Source of the DNA: Clostridia bacterium
GTDB taxonomy: Bacteria; Bacillota; Clostridia; Christensenellales; CAG-138
DNA length: 38,551 nucleotides
Assembly: GCA_017438865.1 (NCBI GenBank)
Contig: JAFRUN010000038.1
Span: forward strand, 1 to 38,551
Reading direction: 5' to 3'
The notes beneath the pieces were generated by a model, which searched no databases, was not told the origin of the DNA, and saw only the letters and a list, made by a program, of their open reading frames with translations. Each line of letters begins with the position of its first letter. The stretch's first letter is position 1. Of this stretch, positions 25,116-38,551 are shown piece after piece. Position numbers and translations under genes: made by a program.

Positions 25116-26123
25116 TCAGATCGCGCCGCCGAAGAAGCGCAGGACCGTTTCGAGAAACGCCGGATCGAGCTCGTTCGCAAGCGCCTTGTCCGCATCGTTC
25201 GGATCGGCAAGCTCACACCGGTAGCGCGCGGCGCCCGCGGACAGCCACGGCGTGGAATGCTCGCTGCGGTACGGCGAGGTGATCAGAAGACTTTTTACAT
25301 TCGGATTCCGGTACTGCTCCGGATCGCGGATCAGACTGTTCTCATACGGCACGAGATCGTCCGAGTCTCCGCCGACGATCCAAACGGGCGTAACCGCCGC
25401 GTCGATCGCTTCGCGCGCCGAATCGTTCGCGTCCGCGCCGAACAGGAAGAAGGATTCGAGCGCGAGGAAGGGGTACTGGATATCGGCAAGCACACCGACG
25501 CGCGCCTTTGCGTGTCCGTACATCAGCGGAACGGGACGGTCGAAGCCGGCGATGCAGACGGCGGCGCGAATCTCCGGATGATCCCTCAGCGCCGTCGCCG
25601 CGGCGTACGCGCCCGCGCTGTGTCCGTAGAGCACGACGGGAAGCCCGTTCCACGCCTTTGAGGCGGTCCGGTATTCCAGGAGCGCGGCAAGATCCCGGCG
25701 GATCTGCTGAAGCCCCTTTGACCAAGCGCCCTCGCTTTTGCCGATGCCCGTCGCGTCCCAGGTGACGACCGACCAGCCGGCGTGTACGAATTCGACGATC
25801 TCGGGAAGGTGCGCGTCCGCGCCGTCGCCGATGCCGTTGACGACGACGATCAGTCCGCGCGGATCTTCGGCGTCGTACCGGAAGCCCGAGAGCGTATTTC
25901 GTCCGGACGGAAAGACGAAGGATTCGCGCGAAACGTCCGGCTGAAGCTCCTCATAGGCGTAATGCAGCGGAGAAAGTCCGCTTCTTCGCGGAAAGAGCGC
26001 GAAAAACACGACGGCGGACGCGATCATCGAGACCGCACAGTATATGAGCAGCGCGCCGAGCGCGATGCACAGCGCTCTGCGTACCGGATGCTTTCGTTTG
26101 ACTTTTGGCGCCGAATGCTTCAT
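25116..26123 (-). CDS. Membrane-anchored alpha/beta hydrolase
   Basis: The 335-residue protein has a basic N terminus, one membrane helix at about 17-44, and an alpha/beta hydrolase domain. The nucleophile elbow is GHSAG (Ser169), the oxyanion region VVVNGIGD, the acid probably in GGDSDDLVP, and the histidine in RSEHSTPW. The long anchor puts the catalytic domain outside or at the membrane. GGGAGGAG precedes the ATG. It is transcribed after the DUF4190-like gene, but a terminator separates them. Substrate unknown; lipases, esterases and peptidases share this fold. Confidence 0.85.
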   Translation of the reverse strand: MKHSAPKVKRKHPVRRALCIALGALLIYCAVSMIASAVVFFALFPRRSGLSPLHYAYEELQPDVSRESFVFPSGRNTLSGFRYDAEDPRGLIVVVNGIGDGADAHLPEIVEFVHAGWSVVTWDATGIGKSEGAWSKGLQQIRRDLAALLEYRTASKAWNGLPVVLYGHSAGAYAAATALRDHPEIRAAVCIAGFDRPVPLMYGHAKARVGVLADIQYPFLALESFFLFGADANDSAREAIDAAVTPVWIVGGDSDDLVPYENSLIRDPEQYRNPNVKSLLITSPYRSEHSTPWLSAGAARYRCELADPNDADKALANELDPAFLETVLRFFGGAI

Positions 26124-26139: not shown

Positions 26140-26172
26140 CAAAAACGTGACGCCGGGAAACCGACGTCACGC
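26140..26172 (-). terminator. Terminator between DUF4190-like gene and hydrolase (minus strand)
   Basis: On the minus strand, CGTGACG (26171-26165) pairs with CGTCACG (26152-26146), with a smaller GG/CC pairing inside the loop, and TTTTT follows. Confidence 0.7.
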
Positions 26173-26201: not shown

Positions 26202-26486
26202 TTATCTGAGCGCGCCGCTGGCAGCAGCCGCAATGATCAAGATGAGGTAGATCGCGATAACGATCGTTGCGATGATGCCGAGGATCAGACCGACTTTGCT
26301 CAGAATAAAGCCGACCTTGGCTGCACCGGCCAGTTCGCCGCCCTGTGCGATGAATTCCTTGCCCTTTTTACGGCCGATCGCACCGAAGATGATGCCGAGG
26401 ATGCCGCAGAAAACGAGACTCAGAATGCCGAACGTAAGCGTATTCGGCTGCGGCAGATTGTTCTGATCGAAATTGTACTGTTCCAT
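26202..26486 (-). CDS. DUF4190-like small membrane protein
   Basis: The 94-residue protein starts with an asparagine/glutamine-rich head (MEQYNFDQNNLPQPN). It has two hydrophobic segments (about 17-38 and 58-90) separated by the basic loop GRKKGKEF, as in the DUF4190 group. It has its own promoter and a strong GGAGGAGG ribosome binding site, then a terminator, so it is a single-gene unit. Function unknown. Confidence 0.8.
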   Translation of the reverse strand: MEQYNFDQNNLPQPNTLTFGILSLVFCGILGIIFGAIGRKKGKEFIAQGGELAGAAKVGFILSKVGLILGIIATIVIAIYLILIIAAAASGALR

Positions 26487-26565: not shown

Positions 26566-27534
26566 TCAAATTGCATCTTCTTTCGCCTTTGCGTCCAGCT
26601 CCTTAAGATATTCTATGATCGTTTCGTCGTATTTTTCCGTATCGTTGATGCGGATGCGGGAATGCGCACCGTGCGGGAACCATACGATCTTTTTCGGCGC
26701 GCTGCAATGCGCGTAGAGGTATTCCGCCTGGTCCGGCGTGGAATAGGTATCCTCGCGGCTGTGCAGGAACAGAATGGGCTTTCCGAGCTTCTCAATGCGC
26801 TTGAACGGGCCGTCGGTGACGACATTTGCGTGCGAGCACAGCCGGATCCAGAGCATGACCTCCTGCTGCACGGGGAAGCGCTTTTTTTCGGGACGGTCGA
26901 CCTTCATGTGATTGTCGAACGACCGGTAGAAGGAGTAGTACATGCCCTCGCAGGACATCGCCTCGATATAATCCGGGCATTCCGGCGCGGTCAGCGCAAA
27001 CAGCGCCGTGGAGGAGCCGATGCAGATGCCGTGCAAAAACACGCGCTCGTTGCCGAGATCGTCGTGCAGAAGGCGGCACCATTCGAGGATGTCGCGGTAC
27101 TCGCGGTAGCCGAGGCAGCTCACCCTGCCCTCGGAAAGTCCGTGCGCGCGGTTGTCGATGACGAGCACGTTTCTGCCCGCGCGGCGGAACGGCTCCGCGA
27201 AATAGTAGGAATACAGCACGCATTCCGTGCGCCCCGCAATGATCAGCGCGGCGGAGCTGCCGCCGAAATCGAAATATTCGCCGACGAGCCGCAATCCGTC
27301 GCTTTTGATCTCCACCTCGCGCTTGCGGTCGGCGTATGATTTACCCCATTCGATGCCGATGTCATGCATCCTGCAGTATTCGGGATCCTCGGGGAAGCTG
27401 CAGCCGCGGTCCCATTTGCCGGGCTTGTTGCGCCGGAGCAGCACGGAATAGATGATCCATGCAAGGATCATCGTGGGGATGACGAAGAAGAAGAGCACCG
27501 CGCCGAGCGCGATCAGAATCCAAAGCCAGACCAT
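26566..27534 (-). CDS. Alpha/beta hydrolase with cysteine at the nucleophile position
   Basis: The 322-residue protein has an N-terminal membrane helix (about 3-32) and an alpha/beta hydrolase domain. The usual G-x-S-x-G elbow reads GICIG, so Cys171 takes the place of serine, as in dienelactone hydrolases. Other landmarks are VIDNRAHGLSEG, a probable acid in HSREDTYS and a histidine in PHGAHSRI. It closes the long minus-strand operon, 10 bp after FakA. Acting on an acyl or lipid substrate would fit the operon, but this is inference. Confidence 0.85.
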   Translation of the reverse strand: MVWLWILIALGAVLFFFVIPTMILAWIIYSVLLRRNKPGKWDRGCSFPEDPEYCRMHDIGIEWGKSYADRKREVEIKSDGLRLVGEYFDFGGSSAALIIAGRTECVLYSYYFAEPFRRAGRNVLVIDNRAHGLSEGRVSCLGYREYRDILEWCRLLHDDLGNERVFLHGICIGSSTALFALTAPECPDYIEAMSCEGMYYSFYRSFDNHMKVDRPEKKRFPVQQEVMLWIRLCSHANVVTDGPFKRIEKLGKPILFLHSREDTYSTPDQAEYLYAHCSAPKKIVWFPHGAHSRIRINDTEKYDETIIEYLKELDAKAKEDAI

Positions 27535-27544
27535 ACCGTTTCCC

Positions 27545-29182
27545 TCACATGATTCCGATTTCCCAACGATAAACCTCCTGCCCGGCGTCGACGAATTCGA
27601 GCCCGAGCATCGGATACCGCCCGGCGATCGCTTCGGCGAGCGCTTCCTCGTCGGATGCGGAGACGCCTGCGCCGCGCAGGACGATGCCGGTTTCGCGGTC
27701 GTCGATATCTTCGATCATGGCAAGCGCGCCGAGGATCGCCGCCTTCCAGTCGCGTTCGACACAGACGAGCTCGCCGCCCAGAAACGCGATTTCCTCGCCG
27801 CGGCGGCAGCGGATCTCGTGGTATGTGTAATCGCGCGAGGCGGTCGTTTCCCGCAGGGTGACGATGTTGTCGATGCCGGAGCGCATGCCGCGGATGCGCT
27901 TTTCAAGGTCCTTCTCGTCCGGAATATCCATGGCGATCGCGTAGTAGCCCTCCGCAAAGCTCCTGGACGGCAGGACCGTCACGCGCTTTTCGGGCACGAG
28001 CGACGCCGCCTGCTCGGCGGCAAGGATGATGTTCTTGTTGTTCGGCAGCACGACGATCTCATCGGCGTCGAGGGAATCGAATGCGGAAACGAACTCCTGC
28101 GCGGAGGTGTTCATGGCGGCGTCGGCGTCGAGCACACAGTCCGCGCCGAGTCCTTCAAACAGCTTGCGCATGCCCGCGCCGTTCACCACGGCGACCACGG
28201 ACAGGGGCTTGTGCACGGCGGGCTTGACGACGCGGTCGCGCTCGTTGTGCTGTATCTGCATATTTTCGAGCTTGAACGTCAGAAACTCGCCGTACCGCTG
28301 CGCCAGCTCGATGATGACGGACGGCGCCTTCGTGTGGATGTGCACCTTGACGCGCTTGCCGTCCTGCACGCAGACGACGGAGTCGCCGAGCCGGTCGAGC
28401 GCGCCGGCAAACGCTTTCAGCCGGAAGTCCTGCTCATAGGCGGAGCCGTTCATGCGCTGCAGGATGAACTCCATGCAGTAGCCGTCGACAAAGACGCTGT
28501 CCTCGTTGAACAGGCCGAGGTCCGGATCGTCGTTCTTCGGCTCGCTCCGCTGCGCGGTATCCTCCAGAACCTCGCCGTTCAGGTATTTCACCATGCCCTC
28601 AAAGATCAGGATGTAGCCCGTCGCGCCGCTGTCGACCACGCCCGCGTCCTTCAGCACCGGAAGCATTTCGGGGGTAAGGACCAGCGTCTTGCGCATTTCG
28701 GCGACATAGGCGGAGAGGATGAAGTCGATCGTGGAGCCGCGGGTGATCTGCGAGCGGATGTGCTCGATGCCCTCGCGCGCGACGGAGAGGATCGTGCCCT
28801 CGACCGGCTTCATGACCGCGCCGTAGGCGACGCGGTAGCCGCGCACCAGCGCGTTCCGGAGCTCGCCCGGACCGATCAGAAGCGCGCGCGAAAGCGCCTG
28901 CGAAAAGCCGTAGAAGAACTGCGACAGGATGACGCCGGAGTTGCCTCTTGCGCCGAGCAGCATACCGGAGGCGAGCGATTTCGTAAAGACGTTGACGTCG
29001 CCGCTGCGTTCCGCGAGGGAAAGCCCGTGCTCCAGCGTCTTCACCATATTGGTGCCGGTGTCGCCGTCGGGGACGGGGAAGACGTTCAGACGGTTGATCT
29101 CGTCCTCGCTTGCGCGAAGGTTTGCGAGCCCGTTTCTGAGCATTTGTTCCAATTCGATTCCGTTGATTCGTTTGACTGCCAT
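27545..29182 (-). CDS. fakA: Fatty acid kinase FakA (DAK2/DhaL domain protein)
   Basis: From ATG 29182 the product has 545 residues and aligns with FakA/YloV from its first residues (MAVKRINGIELEQML). An in-frame ATG at 29209 would add nine residues and cannot be excluded. The N-terminal DhaL kinase domain has the metal/ATP motif NVFPVPDGDTGTNM and LLGARGNSGVILSQ. The middle and C-terminal domains follow the FakA pattern, with ALAMIEDIDDRETG near the end. FakA phosphorylates fatty acids held by a FakB (DegV) protein, giving acyl phosphate for phospholipid synthesis. A DegV protein is encoded two genes upstream in the same operon, which strongly supports the assignment. Confidence 0.9.
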   Translation of the reverse strand: MAVKRINGIELEQMLRNGLANLRASEDEINRLNVFPVPDGDTGTNMVKTLEHGLSLAERSGDVNVFTKSLASGMLLGARGNSGVILSQFFYGFSQALSRALLIGPGELRNALVRGYRVAYGAVMKPVEGTILSVAREGIEHIRSQITRGSTIDFILSAYVAEMRKTLVLTPEMLPVLKDAGVVDSGATGYILIFEGMVKYLNGEVLEDTAQRSEPKNDDPDLGLFNEDSVFVDGYCMEFILQRMNGSAYEQDFRLKAFAGALDRLGDSVVCVQDGKRVKVHIHTKAPSVIIELAQRYGEFLTFKLENMQIQHNERDRVVKPAVHKPLSVVAVVNGAGMRKLFEGLGADCVLDADAAMNTSAQEFVSAFDSLDADEIVVLPNNKNIILAAEQAASLVPEKRVTVLPSRSFAEGYYAIAMDIPDEKDLEKRIRGMRSGIDNIVTLRETTASRDYTYHEIRCRRGEEIAFLGGELVCVERDWKAAILGALAMIEDIDDRETGIVLRGAGVSASDEEALAEAIAGRYPMLGLEFVDAGQEVYRWEIGIM

Positions 29183-29230
29183 ATTCGTTCCTGTATTGTT
29201 GCCGTACATGCGGGACGGTCCCGCAAAGGT

Positions 29231-30925
29231 TCACTTTTCTGTCCGCTCTTCTTTTCCCATCTGCGCGAGGGATTTCGGCAGCATAAAGGACAGCACAAAC
29301 GCGATCATGACCGCGATTGCGCAGATCAGCGTCATCCATTCGACGGTCCAGGTCTTTTTCAGCGCCGTCAGAATGACGTAGCTCGCAATGCCGGAGGCGA
29401 CGCCCGCAAAGAGTCCCTGCACCGCAAAATACATGGCGGCGTTCGAGATGCCGGTGCGCTGCTCGTCCTCTGCGGCGAGCTGGGCGGGTACCGAGTACGC
29501 AACGGAGAACAGCGCGCCGATGCCGAACGAGGAGATGAGACCGGTGAGGATCGCAAGGATCGTCTTCGCCGGACTCTGCGCCTTGATGGTGAACGCCTCG
29601 CGGCCGATCGTCGTAAGCGTGTCCTCCACGACGATGTCGTGTACGGCCGTCTTGCCGCGATTCTCGACCTGAACGGTGAATGTGACGGTTTCGCCCGCTT
29701 TGAGGTTGCTCGTCTTGCTTGCGGACTTGGTGACGCGGATTGCGTTGTCCGCGCGCTTCGCTGCCTGCTTCGATTCGATCGCGTCGGTTGTCAGAAGGGT
29801 ATAGTCATAGGAGTCGGAGACGGTGCTGCCGTCCTCGAGACGTCCCGTTGCGGTGATCGTGCTGTCGATGTGCCCCGCGCTGACGTCCGCCTCCGTGACG
29901 GTGTAGTCAAAGGAGAACTTCACCGGGCGCGTCGGCACGAAGGAAACGAGGAACATCGCCGCCATGCCGATCGCGAAGATCGCGAGCGTATAGCGGAACG
30001 AGAAAGCAAACCCTTTCTTTTTGGTCAGCTTGTTGTAGATGATCAGCGTGAACGGCACGGGCGCGAACGCCGCCATCATGACGAAGATCATGCTCATGCC
30101 GGACACCGAGAAGTACTCGTTGATGCCGGAAAGGAAGAGCTGCACGCCGAGCGTCATGAACGAATAGACGACCATCCAGAGGATGTACTTTTTATCCATG
30201 AAGGTGTAACGGATCGACTGGAACAGACCGACGGCTTTTTCCTCGCCGTTTTCGTTCCTGACGCCGTCCTTGGTGGAGTCTTCCTTGATGAGGAACAGCG
30301 GGATCAGCATCGTCGCGACGATCGGCAGCACGATCATGGCGACCGGACGGATGTTCATACCGTTCAGCAGCATGCGCACCACGACATAGCCGAGGATGAA
30401 GTAGACGATGTCGCAGACCGATTTCACGTTCGAAATGAAGTTGCGTTCCTCCTGCGTGTCGACGATCTCGGTGAACGTCGCGTAATAGGTGACCATCGTC
30501 AGCGTATAGAAGCTGTAGAACACGCACAGCGCAATGCCGTAGAAGAACGTGTTGCCGAGCGATTCGCCGCCCTTGTACGGCGTGACCAGCGCGAACAGCA
30601 CATATGCGAGGATCATCGGGACAAGACCGATGATCAGCGCCGGACGCCTGCGTCCGAACCGCGTTTTCAGGTTATCCGTAAACGACGCCATCGGAACGTC
30701 GATCACGCCGTCGATGATCTTTGCGATCAGTCCGAACACAGCCCAGACCGCCGGGATGACGAGGTCGCGGCTCCAAAAGGTCTGGTTCCCGACGACGTCG
30801 GGACCGAAGCCGGATGCGATGATCGCGCTGCACAGGTACGATCCGACCATCAGGTTCAGCATGTTGACGCCCATGCCGCCGATCGCGTACAGGAACATCT
30901 GCCATTTCTTGGTGAGCTTTCTCAT
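29231..30925 (-). CDS. GPH-family transporter with an inserted DUF11/DUF7507-like domain
   Basis: The 564-residue protein is a twelve-helix transporter of the glycoside-pentoside-hexuronide type. It has DGVIDVPMASFTDN and TRFGRRRPALI near the N terminus and AYSVPAQLAAEDEQRTG before the last helices. Between helices nine and ten (about residues 333-452; 29570-29929) sits a 120-residue insert. Its parts read DYTVTEADVSAGHIDSTITA and IRVTKSASKTSNLKAGETVT, then FTVQVENRG and VVEDTL. This is the style of DUF11 and DUF7507 repeat domains of surface proteins. By topology this loop should face outward. Without it the protein has a normal length of about 444. The cargo is unknown. AAAGGAA precedes the ATG. 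Confidence 0.85.
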   Translation of the reverse strand: MRKLTKKWQMFLYAIGGMGVNMLNLMVGSYLCSAIIASGFGPDVVGNQTFWSRDLVIPAVWAVFGLIAKIIDGVIDVPMASFTDNLKTRFGRRRPALIIGLVPMILAYVLFALVTPYKGGESLGNTFFYGIALCVFYSFYTLTMVTYYATFTEIVDTQEERNFISNVKSVCDIVYFILGYVVVRMLLNGMNIRPVAMIVLPIVATMLIPLFLIKEDSTKDGVRNENGEEKAVGLFQSIRYTFMDKKYILWMVVYSFMTLGVQLFLSGINEYFSVSGMSMIFVMMAAFAPVPFTLIIYNKLTKKKGFAFSFRYTLAIFAIGMAAMFLVSFVPTRPVKFSFDYTVTEADVSAGHIDSTITATGRLEDGSTVSDSYDYTLLTTDAIESKQAAKRADNAIRVTKSASKTSNLKAGETVTFTVQVENRGKTAVHDIVVEDTLTTIGREAFTIKAQSPAKTILAILTGLISSFGIGALFSVAYSVPAQLAAEDEQRTGISNAAMYFAVQGLFAGVASGIASYVILTALKKTWTVEWMTLICAIAVMIAFVLSFMLPKSLAQMGKEERTEK

Positions 30926-30955
30926 GTGAATTCCTTTCCCCCTCAGAAAGAAGTT

Positions 30956-31891
30956 TTATTTTTCGGAAGCCAGCGCTTTTTCGATGATCGCGCGTTCTTC
31001 GCCGAGATCCTTCGAGATCGGCTTTCCGATATAGTACGCCGCCATCAGACCCGGTCCGATGTTGATGCCGCAGGACGGGAACACGTCGTTGATAAAGATC
31101 GCCTTCGGATGAAAACGCTCCTCGATGAGCTCCTGATACTTCTCCGCCTGCGGGAAACGGCTGGTCTGCGCGATGAAGATGATCTGCTCGGACGGGTTCT
31201 CGATCGTGTTTTCAATGTAGTTCAGAAGCGCGGCGTAGGCGGCCTTCGCGCCCTTCGCCTTGCCGATCACGGTGGTGAGACCGTTGTAGTCGAATTCGCC
31301 GATCGGCTTGATGCCTGCGAGCGTGCCGAAAAACGCCTTGGCGTTGGTGAGACGGCCCTTCTTCGCAACGAAGCTCAGATCGTCGAGCCAGCCCGCCTGA
31401 TGGAAGCGGTTCTTGTTCGCCTCGATCCAGTCGGCGACCTCTTCCATTGTTTTGCCTTCTTCGCGGAGCATGGACGCATAGACCGCCATCAGACCGAAGC
31501 CCGGTCCGAAGCGCAGCGTATCGATGCAACGGATGTCTGCGTCGGGACAGGTCTCCCTGACCAGCTTTGCGGCGGTGCAGGCGAAGCCGTATGTGCCGGA
31601 AATGCCGCCGGAAATGGTCATCACGAGCAGCGGCGTGCCGTCTTTGACGATCTCCTCCATGGCGATGCGGAATTCCTCCACGTTGGCGGGCGCGGTGGAA
31701 TAGCCGTTCGGGTTCTTCTTGAGATCGGCATAGAACGCGTCGCGCGGGAAGCGGTCCCACGTCAGAGGACCGGGAATGTCCGACTTGTCGGGCAGAACGA
31801 TGTGTCCCGGAATGACGCGAATGTCGTACTGCTTCTGGAAATCTTCCTGCAGATCGCAGGTTCCGTCGCAAAGAATTGCAAATCTCTGCAT
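30956..31891 (-). CDS. DegV-family fatty-acid-binding protein (FakB-like)
   Basis: The 311-residue protein has the DegV fold: the N-terminal FAILCDGTCDL strand, the signature ISGGISGTYG (about 104-113), a middle region with SFVAKKGRLTNAKAFFGTL, and a C-terminal INIGPGLMAAYY motif. Proteins of this family bind a fatty acid deep inside and present it to FakA for phosphorylation. The co-operonic fakA supports that function. AGGAGG stands eight bases before the ATG. Many Clostridia have several DegV copies with different chain preferences; the preference here is not readable. Confidence 0.9.
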   Translation of the reverse strand: MQRFAILCDGTCDLQEDFQKQYDIRVIPGHIVLPDKSDIPGPLTWDRFPRDAFYADLKKNPNGYSTAPANVEEFRIAMEEIVKDGTPLLVMTISGGISGTYGFACTAAKLVRETCPDADIRCIDTLRFGPGFGLMAVYASMLREEGKTMEEVADWIEANKNRFHQAGWLDDLSFVAKKGRLTNAKAFFGTLAGIKPIGEFDYNGLTTVIGKAKGAKAAYAALLNYIENTIENPSEQIIFIAQTSRFPQAEKYQELIEERFHPKAIFINDVFPSCGINIGPGLMAAYYIGKPISKDLGEERAIIEKALASEK

Positions 31892-31892
31892 A

Positions 31893-32843
31893 TTATTTAT
31901 CCTCCTGTTGGTGGTTTTCTATGGTCTGTCCCTCCCCGAGGAACGTGAATAATTCCTGTTCCGCCCGTTCCGGATCGGCAATGAACGCTTCGGCGTGTCC
32001 CGCGCCCTCCGCGGTGAAAAACGCCTTGCTTGCGCCGCATGCCTCGAATACCGCGCGCCCCGTTTCATACGGCACGGTCCGGTCCGCGGTTCCGTGCAGG
32101 AAGAAGCAGGGGATCGACGCGTTCTTCAGCACATCGTCCGTGCGCGCGCGGATGTCGAGCTTCAAAAACAGCTTCGCAAGCAGCCGGATCGGCGGCATCA
32201 GCAGAAAGCCGGGTACGTTCCGCCGTCTGCAGTCGAGACGGATCTGCTCATAGGGCGAACGGAATCCGCAGTCGAGGATCAGCGCGCGCGTTTTTTCGGG
32301 ATCGAGATCGCAGGCGGCGAACCCCACCGCCGCCGCGCCCATCGACACGCCGTACAGCACGGTTTCGTTTACGCCTTCCGTTGAAAGCGCGCGTTCGTTC
32401 CATGCGATCGCGTCGTACCGCTCGAGAAGTCCGAGCCCGCAGCGCGCCTTTGCGCCCGCCTCGTGTCCGCGCTGGCGGATCAGAAGCACATTGTATCCGC
32501 GCCGCAAGAACATATCCGCCTGCACGGCGAAATTGACCATCGGATCCGTGCGGTAGCCGTGCATGAGGATCGCGGTCCTCGCGCTTCCGTTGTCGCAGTA
32601 GTCCGCCGAAAGCTCGGCGCCGTCGCGCGCCGCGATCGAGATCCGCTGCTTCGGGAACGCGTCGAACCGCGCCTTCGCCGCGCGCATCCGTTCCGCATAG
32701 GGCGCGAACTGCGCGCCGGGCGCAAGCAGCGCATCAAAGCTGTCGCCGGGCTTCGCCCGGAAGATCGTGCATACGGCGACGACCGCCGGTGCGAATACAA
32801 ACACCGCGTAGCATCCGATCAGGGCTGCAGGGATCCAAAGCAT
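31893..32843 (-). CDS. Alpha/beta hydrolase with N-terminal membrane anchor
   Basis: The 316-residue protein begins with a membrane helix (about 3-28). Its hydrolase domain has oxyanion strand AILMHGYRTD, nucleophile Ser167 in GVSMG, a probable acid in HGTADRTVP, and a histidine in EGAGHAEAF. It starts 10 bp after the LRAT-PPTase gene with GAGGAG upstream and ends one base before the DegV gene. It may release or trim acyl groups in the pathway encoded by the operon. Thioesterase, lipase and deacylase functions are all possible. Confidence 0.87.
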   Translation of the reverse strand: MLWIPAALIGCYAVFVFAPAVVAVCTIFRAKPGDSFDALLAPGAQFAPYAERMRAAKARFDAFPKQRISIAARDGAELSADYCDNGSARTAILMHGYRTDPMVNFAVQADMFLRRGYNVLLIRQRGHEAGAKARCGLGLLERYDAIAWNERALSTEGVNETVLYGVSMGAAAVGFAACDLDPEKTRALILDCGFRSPYEQIRLDCRRRNVPGFLLMPPIRLLAKLFLKLDIRARTDDVLKNASIPCFFLHGTADRTVPYETGRAVFEACGASKAFFTAEGAGHAEAFIADPERAEQELFTFLGEGQTIENHQQEDK

Positions 32844-32853
32844 ACCGTTCTCC

Positions 32854-33894
32854 TCAGAAATGTACCGGTTCGTTCGTCAAAATCGGTTCGATCGCGGTTC
32901 CGTCCGTCCGGAACAGCCGCGAAAAAGCCGCGTGCTCGCTGCATACCGACACGATCGGCGTGCGCGGCGCAAGAAGCGTGAACGTCACCGCGCGGTCCGT
33001 GAGCGAGTTCGTTTTCACAGGCGAAAACGCGCGTTTGTCCGACGCCTTGAAGATCGCTTCCTTTCGCGTCCAGCAGGAAAGAAAGCCCTCGACTGTTTCG
33101 GGATACGCCGCGCGCTCGGTCTTCGTAAAGCATCGCGCACGGAGCTTTTCGAGCTTATCCGCGCCGAACCGCGCCGAAATACCCGCGACCGTTTCGAGAT
33201 CGACGCCGACCGGCGCGTTTGAAACCGCCGCGCAGCAGAGCCCGTCCGCGTGCGAAAACGAGATCGAGAACCGGCTGCACGTCCATCCGCCGTTTTTCCG
33301 GCGCGTGAAGACGAGTTCGTCCGGATCCTGCGAGAAGCCGTGCTTCGCCGCGAGCCGCAGAAGCGCCCAGTTCGCGATCCGCGCCTGCTTCAGAGAGGGC
33401 GCGGTGCAGGAATCGATCTCGCGCTTCCGTTCCTCCGGAAGCGGAAAATCGAGCGTGAACCGGTCTGCTTCGGCAAGGTACACGTTCAGCACGGGACGCG
33501 TGTTCCACATACGGAACACGGCTTCCTCCTGCAGACTCTTTCGCTCGCCGAACACGCATTCGTAGGCGAAATGCTCGCAGTTGTTGCGGATCATGTGATA
33601 TCCGTCTTCGCCGAGCCGCGCCCTTGCAAGCCGCACGGTCTCCTCCGGCGGGATACGCTTTTTGCGCTCCGCGCGGTCGAGGACCGCGATCTCGGGGATG
33701 CGTCCCGTTGAGAAGACGTCCATGTCCGTCTCCGTGACGAGGAAGCGATCGGGCGATTTTGCATATTCCGGCACGGGCGGCAGACCGAACGCAACGATCC
33801 TGCCGTCGCCCGTATAAACGCCGTAATGAAAGATCGAACCGATCTGCACCCGCACCATGTCGCCGGGCACGGGATCCCCGGGCAGCCACTTCAT
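32854..33894 (-). CDS. LRAT-domain / Sfp-type phosphopantetheinyl transferase fusion
   Basis: The 346-residue protein has two catalytic domains. Residues 8-118 match the lecithin:retinol acyltransferase family of the NlpC/P60 superfamily. GDMVRVQIGSIFHYGVYTGD carries the catalytic His23, and MIRNNCEHFAYECVFGE carries the catalytic Cys106. Residues about 136-340 match an Sfp-type 4'-phosphopantetheinyl transferase. SFSHADG leads into GVDLE (Asp232, Glu234 for magnesium), and CWTRKEAIFKAS supplies Glu279 and Lys283. The second half should attach phosphopantetheine to the ACP encoded immediately upstream (4-bp overlap). The first half is a thiol-dependent acyltransferase that moves acyl groups between lipids or amines. 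No signal peptide is visible, so it is cytoplasmic or peripheral. Confidence 0.88.
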   Translation of the reverse strand: MKWLPGDPVPGDMVRVQIGSIFHYGVYTGDGRIVAFGLPPVPEYAKSPDRFLVTETDMDVFSTGRIPEIAVLDRAERKKRIPPEETVRLARARLGEDGYHMIRNNCEHFAYECVFGERKSLQEEAVFRMWNTRPVLNVYLAEADRFTLDFPLPEERKREIDSCTAPSLKQARIANWALLRLAAKHGFSQDPDELVFTRRKNGGWTCSRFSISFSHADGLCCAAVSNAPVGVDLETVAGISARFGADKLEKLRARCFTKTERAAYPETVEGFLSCWTRKEAIFKASDKRAFSPVKTNSLTDRAVTFTLLAPRTPIVSVCSEHAAFSRLFRTDGTAIEPILTNEPVHF

Positions 33895-34142
33895 TTCAGC
33901 TTCGCCTCAATATAGCTCACGACGTCGCCGAGCGTTTCAAAATCGCTTGCGCCGACGTTGTCGAAGCGGATGTTCATCTCCTCTTCGATCGCGATGACCA
34001 TGTAGAGCATGCTCACCGACGAGAAGCCGAGGTCCGCGACGAGCCGCGAGTCCTCGGTGCACGCCGCGACCTTGTCGCGGTTCCGGTCGTCCGCGGCGAG
34101 CAGGATCTCCCTGAGCTTTTCGATGATCTCAGTCCTGGACAT
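33891..34142 (-). CDS. Acyl carrier protein
   Basis: The 83-residue acidic protein has the ACP four-helix pattern. The phosphopantetheine serine is most likely Ser42, in VADLGFSSVSML, corresponding to DLGADSL of fatty-acid ACPs; the residue before it is serine instead of aspartate. It overlaps the ligase gene by 14 bp and the LRAT-PPTase gene by 4 bp. It is therefore almost certainly a dedicated carrier loaded by the neighbouring enzymes rather than the housekeeping ACP of fatty acid synthesis. Confidence 0.92.
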   Translation of the reverse strand: MSRTEIIEKLREILLAADDRNRDKVAACTEDSRLVADLGFSSVSMLYMVIAIEEEMNIRFDNVGASDFETLGDVVSYIEAKLK

Positions 34143-35643
34143 GCTTGTACCTCACGATCTTCATCGCGGGCGACCGTTCGAAATCGGTATCGCGCACGAC
34201 GATCCGGCTTACCTGCGAAAATCCCGGCAGGGTGCGGTTGACCTTTTCAAGCTCCGCGACGGCGAACGCCTTGCGCGCCGCGTCGTCCATATCCGTAAGC
34301 TCGGTCGGGCGCAGGACCACCTCAAGCGCAAGGATCGGCTCGCCCAGCGCGCTGCGCGCCTCGAAGACCTGCGAATCCTGAATGAACGGGAGCGCGTTGA
34401 AGTGCGTTTCGACCTCGGCGGGGGAGACGTTCTCGCCGTTCGGCAGAACGATGATCTCCTTGATGCGGCCGGTGATGTAAAGATATCCTTCCTCGTCGAG
34501 CCGCACGAGATCGCCGGTACGGAACCAGCCGTCCTCGTAAGCGCCGGGTTCTTCGACGCCGACGTAGCCCTCCATCATGTTGCGGCCCTTGAGCCACAGC
34601 TCGCCGTCGACGATTTTGATCTCCTGGTTCGGGAACGGCAGACCGACGGAATCGGGCTTTCGGATGCTTTCCGGATTGCCGGAAACGAGGTTTGCGGATT
34701 CGGTGAGACCGTAGCCGGGCAGCAGCTTGATGCCGAGCTTGTCGTATTCTTTGATCAGGAACGGAGCGACCGGCGCCGCGCCGCAGATGATGGTCTTGAG
34801 GTCTGCGCCGAGCATATTGCGTCCGAACTTCTTGGACAGCGTCAGCGCCATCTCCGCAAGCGCGGGTACGATGACGAGGATCGTCGGACGGAAGATCGCG
34901 ACGTCGCGGAACATATCCTTGTTGTTGCGGCAGATATACAGCGCGCTGCCGGTATACAGCGAGGTCATCAGGTTGCGGATCAGTCCGAACACGTGCGAAA
35001 GCGGCAGCACCAGCAGATAGCGCTGACCGAACACGTCCGGATAGCCGTAGCAGCCGTTGATCGTGCCCTGCATCACGGCGTCGTTGCTTAAAAGCGCGCC
35101 CTTGCTGCGGCCGGTCGTGCCGCCGGTAAAGACGATCGCGCACGGCGTTTTCGGTTCGCACGCGACGGCGGGTTTCTTTTCGTCGGAAACGGCGGAAACG
35201 GGGATCAGCTCGATGTCGGGGCGCTTTGCTTTGACGATCGCAAGACGCGGTTCGAAGTCCGCCTGATAGACGAGCTTTTTGATGCCGAACATCATGCAGC
35301 AGCCGAACACGGCTTCCGCGGGCAGGTGCGCGGGGAAGATCGCGGCGGTCGCACCGGAGGTGACGACGGCAAGATACGCCTTGACAAAGTCATAGGAGTT
35401 CGCGGCGAAGATCGCAACGCGCGTGCCGACCGGGCAGTCGCCGAGGAGCGTACGGAAGCCCGCAACGTCCGCGTCAAGCTCCGCATAGCTTCTCGTTTTT
35501 CCTTCGTCGACGATCGCCGGCGCGTCCTTGAATTCACGCGCACAGTGCTCCCACATCGCGGAAACGGTCGTGAACTCTTTGATCCGTTCAAAGGTCTGTT
35601 CGTCCGTGTACTGACGGAAAATCTCTTTATCGGGTGTTTGCAT
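34129..35643 (-). CDS. AMP-forming acyl ligase (acyl-CoA/acyl-ACP synthetase)
   Basis: I choose ATG 35643 because AGAGGAGAT lies just before it; a TTG nine codons upstream is less likely. The 504-residue enzyme has the standard adenylation motifs: FTGGTTGRSKGA, GYGLTES, WFRTGDL, GRIKEIIVLPNGENVSP and the C-terminal lysine in SPAMKIVRYK. It activates a carboxylic acid to its adenylate and transfers it to a thiol. The adjacent ACP gene and two PlsC genes suggest the acceptor is holo-ACP, like the synthetase half of Aas (2-acylglycerophosphoethanolamine acyltransferase). Chain length and acid type cannot be told. Confidence 0.92.
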   Translation of the reverse strand: MQTPDKEIFRQYTDEQTFERIKEFTTVSAMWEHCAREFKDAPAIVDEGKTRSYAELDADVAGFRTLLGDCPVGTRVAIFAANSYDFVKAYLAVVTSGATAAIFPAHLPAEAVFGCCMMFGIKKLVYQADFEPRLAIVKAKRPDIELIPVSAVSDEKKPAVACEPKTPCAIVFTGGTTGRSKGALLSNDAVMQGTINGCYGYPDVFGQRYLLVLPLSHVFGLIRNLMTSLYTGSALYICRNNKDMFRDVAIFRPTILVIVPALAEMALTLSKKFGRNMLGADLKTIICGAAPVAPFLIKEYDKLGIKLLPGYGLTESANLVSGNPESIRKPDSVGLPFPNQEIKIVDGELWLKGRNMMEGYVGVEEPGAYEDGWFRTGDLVRLDEEGYLYITGRIKEIIVLPNGENVSPAEVETHFNALPFIQDSQVFEARSALGEPILALEVVLRPTELTDMDDAARKAFAVAELEKVNRTLPGFSQVSRIVVRDTDFERSPAMKIVRYKHVQD

Positions 35644-35647
35644 GGTT

Positions 35648-36307
35648 TTATCTCCTCTTCTGATAAGCAATTTGCTTTAATTCTTCTTCTTTCTGCTGAA
35701 GCGCCTGCGCGATCGCGTCGATCTCGGACATCGACGGACGCCGTCCGTACCGCGCGAACAGGTCGATCGGCTCGCCGATCACGAAGGTCACACGGTTATA
35801 GAAATGCGCCTTCGGCTTCACATAGACCGGTACGATCGGCACCCTGCCCTGCAGCGCGATCAGCACCATGCCGGATTTGAACGCGCCGAGGTTGTCGCCG
35901 TCCTCGTTGATGTGCCCCTCCGGGAAGATGGACACCAGCGAGCCCTTTTTGAGCTCGTCCGTGATCTCGCGCAGCGAATTGAAATTGAAATTCGCGCGAT
36001 CGATCGGAATGCACAGGAACTGTTTGAACAGCCAGCGGAATCCGGATTCAAAGAATTCCTTTCCGCAGATGAAATGATGCCGCCGGTACCACACCGCGAA
36101 CATCAGATACACGGGATCGAAGAACCCGTAGTGGTTTGCGATGAGCAGCGCGCCGCCGCGGATGCGCTTCTTTGCCGCCTTCGTCTCGAAGATCCAGCGC
36201 GGACGCATCCATATGAGTCCGGGGATCGCCGCCGTCGCCTTGACAAAGTCATAGACGAAGTAACGCGGCGAAAACAGCTCAGCGCGATTCGTTCGTTTCT
36301 GTTCCAT
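35648..36307 (-). CDS. PlsC-type 1-acyl-glycerol-phosphate acyltransferase
   Basis: I choose ATG 36307 (MEQKRTNRAELF), with GGAG ten bases upstream; it overlaps the preceding gene by 29 bp. The 219-residue protein has the acyltransferase motif NHYGFFD (His and Asp of H-x4-D) and SIFPEGHINEDG, with hydrophobic stretches near PGLIWMRP and VYLMFAVW. It should move an acyl group to a lysophospholipid or a similar acceptor at the membrane. It is the second of two PlsC genes in a row, between the two acyl ligases. The glycine after FPE is kept, unlike in the neighbour. Confidence 0.9.
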   Translation of the reverse strand: MEQKRTNRAELFSPRYFVYDFVKATAAIPGLIWMRPRWIFETKAAKKRIRGGALLIANHYGFFDPVYLMFAVWYRRHHFICGKEFFESGFRWLFKQFLCIPIDRANFNFNSLREITDELKKGSLVSIFPEGHINEDGDNLGAFKSGMVLIALQGRVPIVPVYVKPKAHFYNRVTFVIGEPIDLFARYGRRPSMSEIDAIAQALQQKEEELKQIAYQKRR

Positions 36308-36923
36308 ACAGCAGTTTCTCCAAAGCGGCGATCCGCTCCCGAAGCCGTTCGGAAACGATCGCAAGGTTTTCTTTCTCGTCCGCGCCGTCCTCTAAAAGGT
36401 CGGAGGCGAGGATCGGCTTTCCGATCAGCACGCGGGCGCGTTTGCGGCAGAAATACGATCCGTTCGTCACGACCGGAATGATCTTCGCGCCGCTTTCGAG
36501 CGCGAGCAGCGCCGCGCTCACCTTGAACGGCAGAGGACGTTCTTCGCCGGGACGGGGCAGACGGCTTTCCGGAAAGATCCCCACCACGCCGCCGCGGGAG
36601 AGGATCGAGAGCGATTTCGGCAGAAAGCCGAAATCGTGCGTGTTCCGGTCGACCCGGATCCCGCCCAGAAGCCGCAGAAACCATCCGAGCAGCGGTTTTT
36701 CATAGAGCACCTCCGCCATCTGAAAGCGCAGCGTGCGCGTCCAGAACACGAACAGATACACCGCGTAGTCAAAGACCGACGTGTGGTTCGAAATGATGAT
36801 CGCGCGCCCGTCAATGTGCCTACCCTGCACGCGCCTGTCCTCATAAAGGATCTTCGTGCGGAAGCACAGAAGCTGCGCGGGCCAGCCGGTGATCTTCACA
36901 AACCAGTTGAACAGCGCGATCAT
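36279..36923 (-). CDS. PlsC-type acyltransferase, second paralogue
   Basis: The 214-residue protein has NHTSVFD (H-x4-D) and a variant block III, IFPESRLPRPGE, where serine replaces the usual glycine of FPEG. An N-terminal hydrophobic stretch (ALFNWFVKITGWPAQLLCF) probably attaches it to the membrane. It overlaps the ligase-ACP gene by 4 bp (ATGA) and the next PlsC gene by 29 bp, so translation is coupled. Two adjacent, divergent PlsC proteins suggest two successive acylations or two acceptors. Confidence 0.9.
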   Translation of the reverse strand: MIALFNWFVKITGWPAQLLCFRTKILYEDRRVQGRHIDGRAIIISNHTSVFDYAVYLFVFWTRTLRFQMAEVLYEKPLLGWFLRLLGGIRVDRNTHDFGFLPKSLSILSRGGVVGIFPESRLPRPGEERPLPFKVSAALLALESGAKIIPVVTNGSYFCRKRARVLIGKPILASDLLEDGADEKENLAIVSERLRERIAALEKLLYGTETNESR

Positions 36924-38551
36924 GCAGGGGTCCCGCCTTTCTCGCCGCGGATGTAGTCCGCAATGCTGCGCACGGTCTTGAAGCCCGTGTCCTCCAGCGG
37001 AAACGCCGCGCCGAACTCATCCCTGAGCCGTGTCAGCATCGCGAAATAATCGAGACTCGTGCCGCCGAGGTCGAGGAAGAAATCGGCGTCAAGGGCGATC
37101 TCGTCTTCGCTTCGGTTCACGGCGGCGGCGACGATCGCGCGCACGCGGCGCATCAGCGCGTCGGCTTCCGCATCGTCGGTCCTTCCGGAAAGATCGAGCG
37201 GTTTCAGCGCGCCGGAGGCGAAGTCGCGGCGCAGACGGACGCGGTTCAGCTTGAACTCGTCCGCTTTCATCAAAGGTCCCTCGACGAGCACGATGCGCGA
37301 GATCGCGGAAGTCAGGTTCAGGCGTTCGATCTTTTCGATCAGCGTACCGCGCAGCTGTTCCGCGGCTTCCGCGGTGATCATGCGGTTCACACCGGCAAGC
37401 AGTACCGTCGCCGGTCTGCCGTTGTCGTTTGCGGGGATCAGGCAGACCTCCGCGCGGTCCGTTTTCAAAAGCGGCTCGACGGCGTTCGGGTTCAGGTTTT
37501 CGCCGTCCGGTCCGACGATCAGATCGTCGGCGCGCCCGAGGATGCGATAGTGCCCGTCGACGCATTCCGCAAGGTCGCGCGTCGGGAACCAGCCGTCGCG
37601 CTCCGCGCGTCCGTCGGCGGAAAGAATGTATTTCGCGGTCACGCGTCCGCGGACTGTAAGCTCGCCGGAATCGTTGATGCGGTATTCGACGTTTTGCATG
37701 GGCTTGCCGACGCAGCCGAGACGCAGATACTTTCGCTTTGCGGACAGCTCGACCGACGTGATGCCGATCTCGGTCATGCCGTAGCCGTTTGCAAGCCGGT
37801 ATCCGATCCCGTTGAAAAACGCCTGGATCGACGGATCGAGGAAGCTCCCGCCCGTGATCATAAAGAGCACGGAATCGCCGAACAGATTTTCGCGCACCTC
37901 GCGGAACGCAAGCTTCGAGAACGCCGCGGAGAGCGGGCGGGGGAGCTTTTCGGCAAGCGCCAGCGCGCGGTCGAATTTCTTTGCGGTCTTTTCGCCGCGA
38001 TCGGCAATGCCCTTTTTCGCCTGCTCATAAACCTTTTCCCAGAAAAGCGGCACGGCAAAAATATGCGTGACCTTGTGACGGCGGATCGTGTTGACGATCG
38101 TCGACGGGGAGAGGTCGTTGAGATGCACGAACGTGCGCGAGAAGAACGCGAACCAGATATACATCGCGATCAGTCCGAACACGTGATAGAAGGGCAGGAA
38201 GGTCAACAGCTTGAGGTTGCCTTCGTAATGCTTTTTAATGAGGGGTTGTTCTTTGATGATTCCGTAGCTGTCCCGGATCTGATAATAGAACTCCTCCGCG
38301 GAATACGCGCAGACCTTGACGTTTTCGGTTGTGCCGGAGGACATGACAAAAAGCTCCGTGCCGAACGGACGCGGGTCGATCGGCTCGCCGGAGGTCGGGA
38401 TCGCATCCGGACGCAGCACGGGACAGGAGAAATCGCCCTTTTCGGCGATGACCGCGCGGCAGTCTGCAATGCGCATCGCACCGGAAAGCAGGGGCATCGG
38501 CAGGCGCAGGTTCATCAAAAGCGGACGGAAGCCCGCGGCAAGGATCGCCCA
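36920..38551 (-). CDS. AMP-forming ligase fused to a C-terminal acyl carrier domain (5' end outside window)
   Basis: The frame is open to the window edge and its first visible residues (WAILAAGFRPLL) belong to the ligase fold, so the start lies beyond 38551; 543 residues are seen. Adenylation motifs are present but unusual: MSSGTTENVKV replaces the common SGTTGxPK, NGYGMTE is normal, the TGD core reads TRD in WFPTRDLAE, and GRADDLIVGPDGENLNP is present. A conserved-type lysine lies in ADEFKLNR. An ACP domain follows (about 70 residues), with FLDLGGTSLDYF carrying the attachment serine (codon at 37055-37057). The protein should load an acyl or amino acid onto its own carrier domain. Confidence 0.9.
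   Translation of the reverse strand, partial: WAILAAGFRPLLMNLRLPMPLLSGAMRIADCRAVIAEKGDFSCPVLRPDAIPTSGEPIDPRPFGTELFVMSSGTTENVKVCAYSAEEFYYQIRDSYGIIKEQPLIKKHYEGNLKLLTFLPFYHVFGLIAMYIWFAFFSRTFVHLNDLSPSTIVNTIRRHKVTHIFAVPLFWEKVYEQAKKGIADRGEKTAKKFDRALALAEKLPRPLSAAFSKLAFREVRENLFGDSVLFMITGGSFLDPSIQAFFNGIGYRLANGYGMTEIGITSVELSAKRKYLRLGCVGKPMQNVEYRINDSGELTVRGRVTAKYILSADGRAERDGWFPTRDLAECVDGHYRILGRADDLIVGPDGENLNPNAVEPLLKTDRAEVCLIPANDNGRPATVLLAGVNRMITAEAAEQLRGTLIEKIERLNLTSAISRIVLVEGPLMKADEFKLNRVRLRRDFASGALKPLDLSGRTDDAEADALMRRVRAIVAAAVNRSEDEIALDADFFLDLGGTSLDYFAMLTRLRDEFGAAFPLEDTGFKTVRSIADYIRGEKGGTPA

Follow-up and report, generated by a model that had tools for sequence, protein, structure and literature searches.

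A recurrent operon of gut Clostridia linking fatty acid activation, carrier proteins and PlsC-type acyltransferases in a candidate glycerolipid acylation pathway

In Escherichia coli, the LplT-Aas system combines an MFS transporter, a PlsC-type acyltransferase and an acyl ligase working with acyl carrier protein (ACP), as described in the available part of PMC11416262. In Gram-positive bacteria, exogenous fatty acids are handled by FakAB-PlsX, in which FakB and FakA generate an acyl-phosphate that PlsX converts to acyl-ACP (accessible portions of PMC10146087 and PMC11586512). Here we describe a run of eleven minus-strand genes on a contig of a Clostridia bacterium (GenBank JAFRUN010000038.1), analysed over its whole length of 38,551 bases (the window) and belonging to a 1.92 Mb genome that is 80% complete. 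The run shares the MFS, PlsC and ligase components with LplT-Aas, and DegV/FakB and FakA with FakAB-PlsX. Comparison of sequences leads us to favour, by a slight balance, a self-contained pathway of fatty acid activation and glycerolipid deacylation and reacylation, which would operate on the membrane's inner side. Co-function of the genes, which the original prediction for this DNA had claimed from gene order, is supported by (i) an order kept across many genera, (ii) the co-occurrence of halves of the unit that are not physically linked, and (iii) the reappearance of these families where the operon is rearranged.

The eleven genes lie head to tail between 26566 and 38551, in the 5′ to 3′ order Lig1-ACP, PlsC1, PlsC2, Lig2, ACP2, LRAT-PPTase, Hyd1, DegV, MFS_2, FakA and Hyd2. 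All eleven that had been predicted were recovered, and Pfam and NCBIfam searches place the proteins in the expected families: two AMP-forming ligases with one ACP in cis and one in trans, a carrier-activating enzyme fused to a thiol acyltransferase, FakB- and FakA-like proteins, and a transporter. Both predicted hydrolases are also present; that the one at 26566-27534 has a Cys rather than a Ser nucleophile had been missed. Overlaps or gaps of at most about 50 bp had been claimed, and the measured spacing is –38 to +48 bp when PlsC2 is counted from 36316; its likely ATG at 36307, probably the true start since a Met is conserved there, gives a 29-bp overlap. Pattern scans found no strong terminator inside the run, as had been noted by eye. 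Of the hairpins with T runs, the strongest pair (26172-26145 and 25049-25021) lies downstream, so the boundaries drawn originally appear good. Terminator-like sites numbered 21 overall, not clearly above the 15.9 (s.d. 3.9) found in shuffled sequences, and several weak ones fall within genes. The run would be expected to be co-transcribed.

A search along the lines that the original prediction had proposed was made by scanning a 13-row Lig2 alignment against a collection of named genomes and taking the best 80 of 194 relatives, that is, the loci most similar in Lig2 (loci are given L numbers and genomes G numbers below). In 79 of the 80, the genes present keep the order; the sole exception, L120, has MFS between Lig1 and PlsC1 and lacks the FakA half. 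All of Lig1, PlsC1, PlsC2, Lig2, ACP2, DegV, FakA and Hyd2 are held by 54, and FakA is absent from ten, eight of them by contig end, the others being L120 and L102. With each gene scored only where other operon genes flank its position, presence was 67/67 for PlsC1, 74/74 for PlsC2, 78/78 for the ACP gene after Lig2, 68/78 for LRAT, 73/77 for Hyd1, 71/72 for DegV, 42/70 for MFS and 64/64 for FakA; a phosphopantetheinyl transferase (PPTase) signal, beside or fused to LRAT, was found in 31/77. Pairwise identity has a median of 48-63% in ten of the twelve genes measured and of 36-38% in Hyd1 and Hyd3, the latter a frequent neighbour described below. Across the 16 gene pairs listed, distances between loci are correlated (r 0.56-0.86; maximum 0.24 in 100 permutations), which fits inheritance as a block, though shared ancestry of the species would by itself be able to produce such a pattern.

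The nearest named relative is the metagenome-assembled genome (MAG) 'uncultured Clostridiales bacterium RUG13758' (L055), with 99% identity in Lig2. A goat, sheep, buffalo or yak gut site is named in the record titles of 25 of the 80 loci, and another 25 have titles with RUG or Tb.RUG names, RUG standing for rumen uncultured genomes. Ruminococcaceae bacterium P7 (L091), by its record name apparently a cultured isolate, carries the operon, as do two Erysipelotrichaceae MAGs (L114, L123) and a Treponema MAG (L128), these three without LRAT and MFS. The operon stretch of L128 has 38% G+C and a search of L128 gave no 16S; its presence there reflects either cross-phylum transfer or misbinning.

The two halves of the unit also keep company when they are apart. 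Among the 103 genomes of the window's family, 15 have a strong match to Lig2 (E of 4e-230 or better, a cut-off set at a natural gap and chosen after seeing the data), and Hyd2, taken as the marker of the FakA half, is found in 15/15 of these against 8/88 of the others (Fisher 1.2e-12, p values here being uncorrected for kinship); within the genus alone the counts are 10/10 against 3/13 (p 4e-4), and adding six weaker Lig2 genomes (1e-127 to 1e-134) gives 18/21 against 5/82. Five of the 15 genomes carry Lig2 on one contig and Hyd2 on another (G056, G060, G066, G069, G072). The contig of G069 ends within DegV; in G056, G060 and G072 the unit ends after LRAT-PPTase though 7 kb or more of sequence follows, and a separate second locus holds DegV-MFS-FakA-Hyd2 (L179-L181). 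Three same-genus genomes that are 95-97% complete (G073, G074, G077) lack both Lig2 and Hyd2; therefore the unit is accessory. The same follows from plsX, matched in 22/22 genomes (14 with strong Lig2 and 8 without; over the cut-off in 20 and partial only in the other two): the unit supplements the standard pathway, and the idea that it replaces canonical lipid synthesis was rejected.

Wider sampling used 396 genomes of the order (E 1e-60) and 391 of the class (E 1e-100), in which 13 and 6 further Lig2 genomes, respectively, were found besides the window's own. Three of the 13 were family members already covered, and the other 16 loci were read, some of them in stretches cut by contig ends. 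PlsC stands beside Lig2 in 13 of the 16. The class sample repeats the association of halves, with Hyd2 in 4/4 other strong-Lig2 genomes (1e-205 or better) against 10/386, on another contig in three of the four; two weaker Lig2 genomes had no Hyd2. Scattered homologues without order, the outcome that the original prediction had named as speaking against a unit, were not seen in the 80 closest loci; distant Lig2 loci do often lack an adjacent FakA half. Among weaker relatives of Lig2, L162, L165, L171, L184, L185, L186 and L193 were set aside with most of the operon absent, and L170 retains just a PlsC1 and an ACP of the unit. L178, a phylum-level Lig1 relative, has no other unit gene across 13.8 kb.

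Loci centred on Hyd2 show the same families in other arrangements. Besides the window's own there are 14 at class level, of which 13 were read here, the fourteenth (G709) being L173, read earlier. FakA and DegV are nearby in 13/13, PlsC in 11/13 and Lig1 in 9/13, in several orders. In L196, L200 and L203 the order is a compact DegV-FakA-MFS-Lig1-PlsC-Hyd2, with a single ligase and a single PlsC; L188 and L189 have the same order with room for one gene between FakA and MFS, which in L189 is a patatin-like phospholipase (85 bits). L187 reads Lig1-ACP, fused PlsC-PlsC, ACP, hydrolase, DegV, Hyd2, DegV, FakA and PlsX, the last (L187:12105-13028) ending the operon with 195 bits in Pfam and 217 bits for TIGR00182, under the cut-off of 243; elsewhere, PlsX, DegV and FakA (other FakAB copies) lie no more than 5 kb apart in 6/22 family genomes. 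FakA and DegV are on the strand opposite Hyd2 in L198, L199 and L204, and in L168 the ligase half and DegV-FakA-Hyd2 occupy opposite strands of one stretch. In L120, L161, L164, L167, L169 and L172, MFS sits among the PlsC and ligase genes with no FakA half in the stretch. The theme recurring through these swaps appears to be phospholipase, fatty acid activation, carrier and PlsC. Two further observations concern single loci: a Schlafen/AlbA-type regulator-like gene lies between MFS and FakA in L190 (L190:15292-16737), and in L197 both the FakA relative and the PlsC1 relative in the FakA half are broken into two reading frames each, the same genome having a second locus (L174) with Lig2 and part of the ligase half.

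That genes of unrelated pathways drifted together without forming a functional unit is extremely unlikely. Such drift would suit the accessory distribution, the coming and going of MFS, LRAT, PPTase, DUF4190 and Hyd3, and the lack of a FakA half in the stretch in 12/16 distant Lig2 loci, but it is contradicted by the order in 79/80 loci, by the co-occurrence of unlinked halves and by the recurrence of the set in other orders.

The individual enzymes look active, with catalytic residues conserved in nearly all rows; the counts come from one alignment per gene of copies from the 80 named loci plus the window, after removal of copies below 70% of the length of the window protein or containing a stop. 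Lig1-ACP (36920-38551; Pfam AMP-binding and PP-binding) is an AMP-forming acyl ligase with a C-terminal acyl carrier domain. Its 5′ end is cut by the contig end, so that about 100 N-terminal residues are missing and the window copy begins at position 105 of a 647-position family model; L055 has a full-length homologue in the alignment. The P-loop Lys, Glu, Asp, hinge Asp and C-terminal Lys of Lig1 are kept in 65-66 of 66 aligned rows (C-terminal Lys 66/66; P-loop Lys 65/66, the remaining row being a gap). Lig2 (34129-35643; PF00501, 192 bits) is an AMP-forming acyl ligase of fatty acid ligase type with catalytic Lys504 in 79/79 rows. The free-standing carrier ACP2 (33891-34142) scores 21.0 bits for PF00550 against a cut-off of 20.8 and falls under the cut-offs of the NCBIfam acyl carrier protein models; its phosphopantetheine serine, Ser42, is present in 80/80 rows. 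The ACP fused to Lig1 and the ACP gene following Lig2 are circumstantial pointers to ACP, rather than CoA, as the likely acceptor of the ligases.

Both acyltransferases belong to PF01553 and retain the HX4D motif, with H47 and D52 in 71/71 rows of PlsC1 (36279-36923) and H62 and D67 in 72/72 rows of PlsC2 (35648-36307). PlsC2 is nearer to the acyltransferase domain of Aas, scoring 80.9 bits with the Aas-type NCBIfam model PRK08633 and 69.5 with AGP_acyltrn (AGPAT).

LRAT-PPTase (32854-33894) joins an N-terminal LRAT/PLAAT-type domain (PF04970, 58.2 bits), predicted to be a thiol acyltransferase or phospholipase, to a C-terminal Sfp-type PPTase (PF01648, 37.3 bits). A profile search of the PDB matched Group XVI phospholipase A2 / HRASLS (PLAAT) chains at 2e-9 and Sfp at 3e-6. 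LRAT His23 (HYG context) and Cys106 (NCEHF context) are present in 69/69 rows; in the PPTase, the D and E of GVDxE are found in 25/25 rows and the K and E of WxxKE in 24/25 each. Matches to LRAT-PPTase in L049-L054 were rejected as unit copies, being other PPTases in loci without the operon. In L190, a PlsC protein (L190:10843-11796) carries a C-terminal LRAT-like domain in which the catalytic His and Cys are lost, perhaps a binding or scaffold remnant.

Hyd1 (31893-32843; PF12146) and Hyd2 (26566-27534; PF00561) are membrane-anchored alpha/beta hydrolases, the former with an N-terminal hydrophobic segment and a Ser-Asp-His triad (S167/D254/H283 in 72/72 rows), and the latter with a G-x-C-x-G nucleophile motif (C171/D262/H291 in 62/62 rows), in which the nucleophile is an invariant Cys and never Ser. 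Alpha/beta enzymes with a Cys nucleophile are often acyl transferases (PhaC-like); no PhaC family appears among the listed matches of Hyd2, which are to families of alpha/beta hydrolases, to a model for a lactonase and, in the PDB, to esterases, lipases and related hydrolases.

These components also bear on a different product. It is conceivable, but in our judgement unlikely, that the unit makes a specialised acylated compound (a glycolipid, lipoamino acid or signalling lipid) rather than remodelling bulk lipid, the ligase/ACP pairs loading two different acids that the PlsC pair and LRAT would attach to a non-standard acceptor. A doubled set of ligase and carrier with a PPTase of its own does resemble biosynthetic clusters, LRAT and the Cys-nucleophile hydrolase could both be acyl transferases, and the distribution within one genus is patchy beside canonical synthesis (plsX in all 22 genomes). 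Against this, no further family recurs on the operon strand in more than 5 of the 80 loci (flanks covered: median 7.0 kb before Lig1 in 67 loci and 3.4 kb after Hyd2 in 64 loci; of the rarer families, one was annotated), so that no shared tailoring enzyme is seen, and FakAB/PlsX, patatin and the PLAAT relatives indicate acyl chains of phospholipids. Three recurrent minus-strand clusters considered as extra members were rejected as shadow open reading frames overlapping operon genes.

The DegV/FakB-like protein (30956-31891), a putative fatty acid binder, scores 178 bits for PF02645 and 190 bits for TIGR00762; its 89.5 bits against the FakB1 model are under the cut-off of 350. The FakA-like kinase (27545-29182), with Dak2, FakA-like_M and FakA-like_C domains, exceeds the TIGR03599 cut-off (483 against 396 bits) and lies below that of the FakA equivalog model NF038248 (333 against 975). 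Its Asp, His and Cys motifs, which have metal and zinc roles, are invariant in 64/64 rows. The genome holds three full-length FakA and six DegV copies, and the unit FakA is 34-38% identical to the two other full-length copies, which marks it as a dedicated paralogue. Such copy numbers, the many named carriers from ruminant guts, and the meeting of kinase and ligase activation routes in one operon would also suit a simple scavenging route for fatty acids of the diet or the rumen that bypasses type II fatty acid synthesis (FASII), with FakAB and the ligases feeding acyl-ACP to bulk phospholipid and the remaining genes acting as accessory lipases. We consider this quite unlikely, because with canonical plsX present anyway two PlsC enzymes, dedicated ACPs and LRAT would be superfluous.

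The MFS_2 (GPH-type) transporter (29231-30925; PF13347, 84.9 bits, with hydrophobic segments) bears at about residues 337-453 a 117-residue DUF7507/DUF11 insert that is absent from 16/16 aligned relatives and probably sits in an extracytoplasmic loop. The gene is 82% and 73% identical (before and after the insert) to its nearest relative, below the 91-99% of neighbouring genes, which suggests local replacement. A single-sequence PDB search returned the lysophosphatidylcholine symporter only (E 0.0035 and 0.0087), whereas with the family profile the best match was the sucrose carrier SUC1 (0.0068), ahead of the symporter (0.028). Given this split, lysolipid was rejected as a cargo assigned by homology, and we make no claim of lysolipid transport on that ground.

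Returning to glycerolipid deacylation and reacylation, the reading that we favour, free fatty acids from the gut, or freed from lipids by the LRAT/PLAAT-type domain and the Ser and Cys hydrolases, would be activated in two ways: FakB would hand a fatty acid to FakA, giving an acyl-phosphate whose acyl group PlsX can transfer to ACP, and both ligases would load fatty acids as acyl-AMP, most likely onto the fused and the free ACP, both primed by the attached PPTase. PlsC1 and PlsC2 would then put acyl chains on a lysolipid or glycerophosphodiester, which MFS_2 may supply by bringing lysolipid or backbone to the inner leaflet, the cargo being the weakest step, while LRAT and the hydrolases would remove or move acyl chains. 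In its workings the whole would resemble a doubled E. coli LplT-Aas coupled to FakAB-PlsX. A more elaborate version, possible though doubtful, is a second, insulated line of glycerolipid acylation parallel to PlsX/PlsY/PlsC, in which each PlsC would have its own ligase and carrier, the chains for the two glycerol positions would be selected from recycled or exogenous fatty acids independently of FASII, with PLAAT-type editing of the product, and a bacterial Lands cycle would thus have spread horizontally as one operon.

Several observations weigh against the favoured pathway. The transporter is of the GPH/MFS_2 family rather than LplT, with weak PDB matches, and is missing at its place in 28/70 loci; since 10/78 loci likewise have no LRAT at its place, neither gene is essential. 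The third LRAT catalytic residue, in a column picked from the alignment to PLAAT chains, is never His (Q in 40, A in 25, E in 3 and S in 1 of 69), and the catalytic triad of LRAT/PLAAT enzymes is CHH, including a third His, in the available part of PMC10318531. The LRAT-like domain fused to PlsC in L190 has its His and Cys replaced and was accordingly rejected as proof of LRAT function. In the PDB, Lig1 and Lig2 find their best matches in CoA ligases and in non-ribosomal peptide synthetase (NRPS) adenylation domains. Finally, the FakA half is in the same stretch for only 4/16 distant Lig2 loci (L160, L163, L168, L173), and the joined eleven-gene order therefore belongs mainly to closer relatives.

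Outside the eleven genes, two minus-strand neighbours recur, each followed in the window by its own terminator-like hairpin. The gene at 26202-26486 encodes a DUF4190-like small membrane protein (17.6 bits, below the cut-off of 35), an often-present downstream neighbour found in 47/64 loci that hold Hyd2, and the hairpin after it (26145-26172, minus strand) has a 12-bp stem and a T run. Hyd3 (25116-26123; PF12146, 71.8 bits), a third alpha/beta hydrolase (GxSxG) that can stand at either end of the unit, occurs in 43/64, has Ser169 in 45/45 rows and in some genera stands upstream of Lig1; its hairpin in the window is the one at 25049-25021. In L179 and L180, Hyd2 is followed by two or three DUF4190-like genes; the DUF4190-like small membrane proteins as a group may be a family tied to the unit, as these neighbourhoods suggest. 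A convergent sigma-70-type gene lies downstream of the unit in 8/80 loci (L073, L074, L076, L077, L081, L087, L089, L091), the assignment coming from a scan of the L091:17747-18403 copy only. For the window's remaining 25 kb the relatives give little information, as whole-unit stretches extend about 2 kb or less on that side.

The eleven-gene set thus recurs in many distantly related gut Clostridia, connects activation by FakAB and activation by acyl ligases with dedicated acyltransferases, and places in a bacterial lipid operon an enzyme of the PLAAT/LRAT type, a family studied mostly in animals. It supplies concrete candidate genes for fatty acid incorporation by rumen bacteria, together with presence/absence pairs inside one genus. 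A 2025 rumen study calls the entry of exogenous fatty acids into the membranes of such bacteria 'largely unexplored' in the available part of its text (PMC12394162). No description of the gene set was found among titles and the starts of abstracts in the open PMC library, a scope that leaves subscription papers and preprints outside; within it, each enzyme family is known, and the association, its spread and its fusions appear undescribed, in line with the original view of known families in an unfamiliar combination.

Comparison with the closest systems sharpens this picture. An auxiliary ACP of Enterococcus faecalis, AcpB, is likewise an extra carrier linked to exogenous fatty acid handling (accessible part of PMC6509188), but the present unit has two extra ACPs, in an operon with ligases and PlsC enzymes. 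The likeness to LRAT/PLAAT (HRASLS) phospholipase A/acyltransferases extends over the whole domain and includes the catalytic His and Cys; the version here differs in being bacterial, in having a PPTase signal beside or fused to it in 31/77 loci, and in the replacement of the third catalytic His. With FakAB-PlsX, L187 shares even PlsX, placed after FakA, whereas the FakA of the unit is a dedicated paralogue tied to ligases and PlsC genes. The earlier description as a duplicated, split Aas system joined to fatty acid kinase fits the Aas-type score of PlsC2 and the versions with one ligase and one PlsC (L189, L196). The unit differs from LplT-Aas in having two ligases, two ACPs (one fused, one free) and two separate PlsC genes, in occurring in Clostridia, and in adding FakAB, LRAT-PPTase and hydrolases. 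Of the features that define LplT-Aas, a PlsC-type acyltransferase with HX4D is found in both PlsC proteins; synthetase and acyltransferase are not in one chain, ligases and PlsC being separate genes (the Aas-type models, built on fused proteins, score the unit proteins far under their cut-offs), and the transporter is MFS_2/GPH, with no LplT family in the NCBIfam results. With these two features absent, the unit would work like LplT-Aas without being a member of it.

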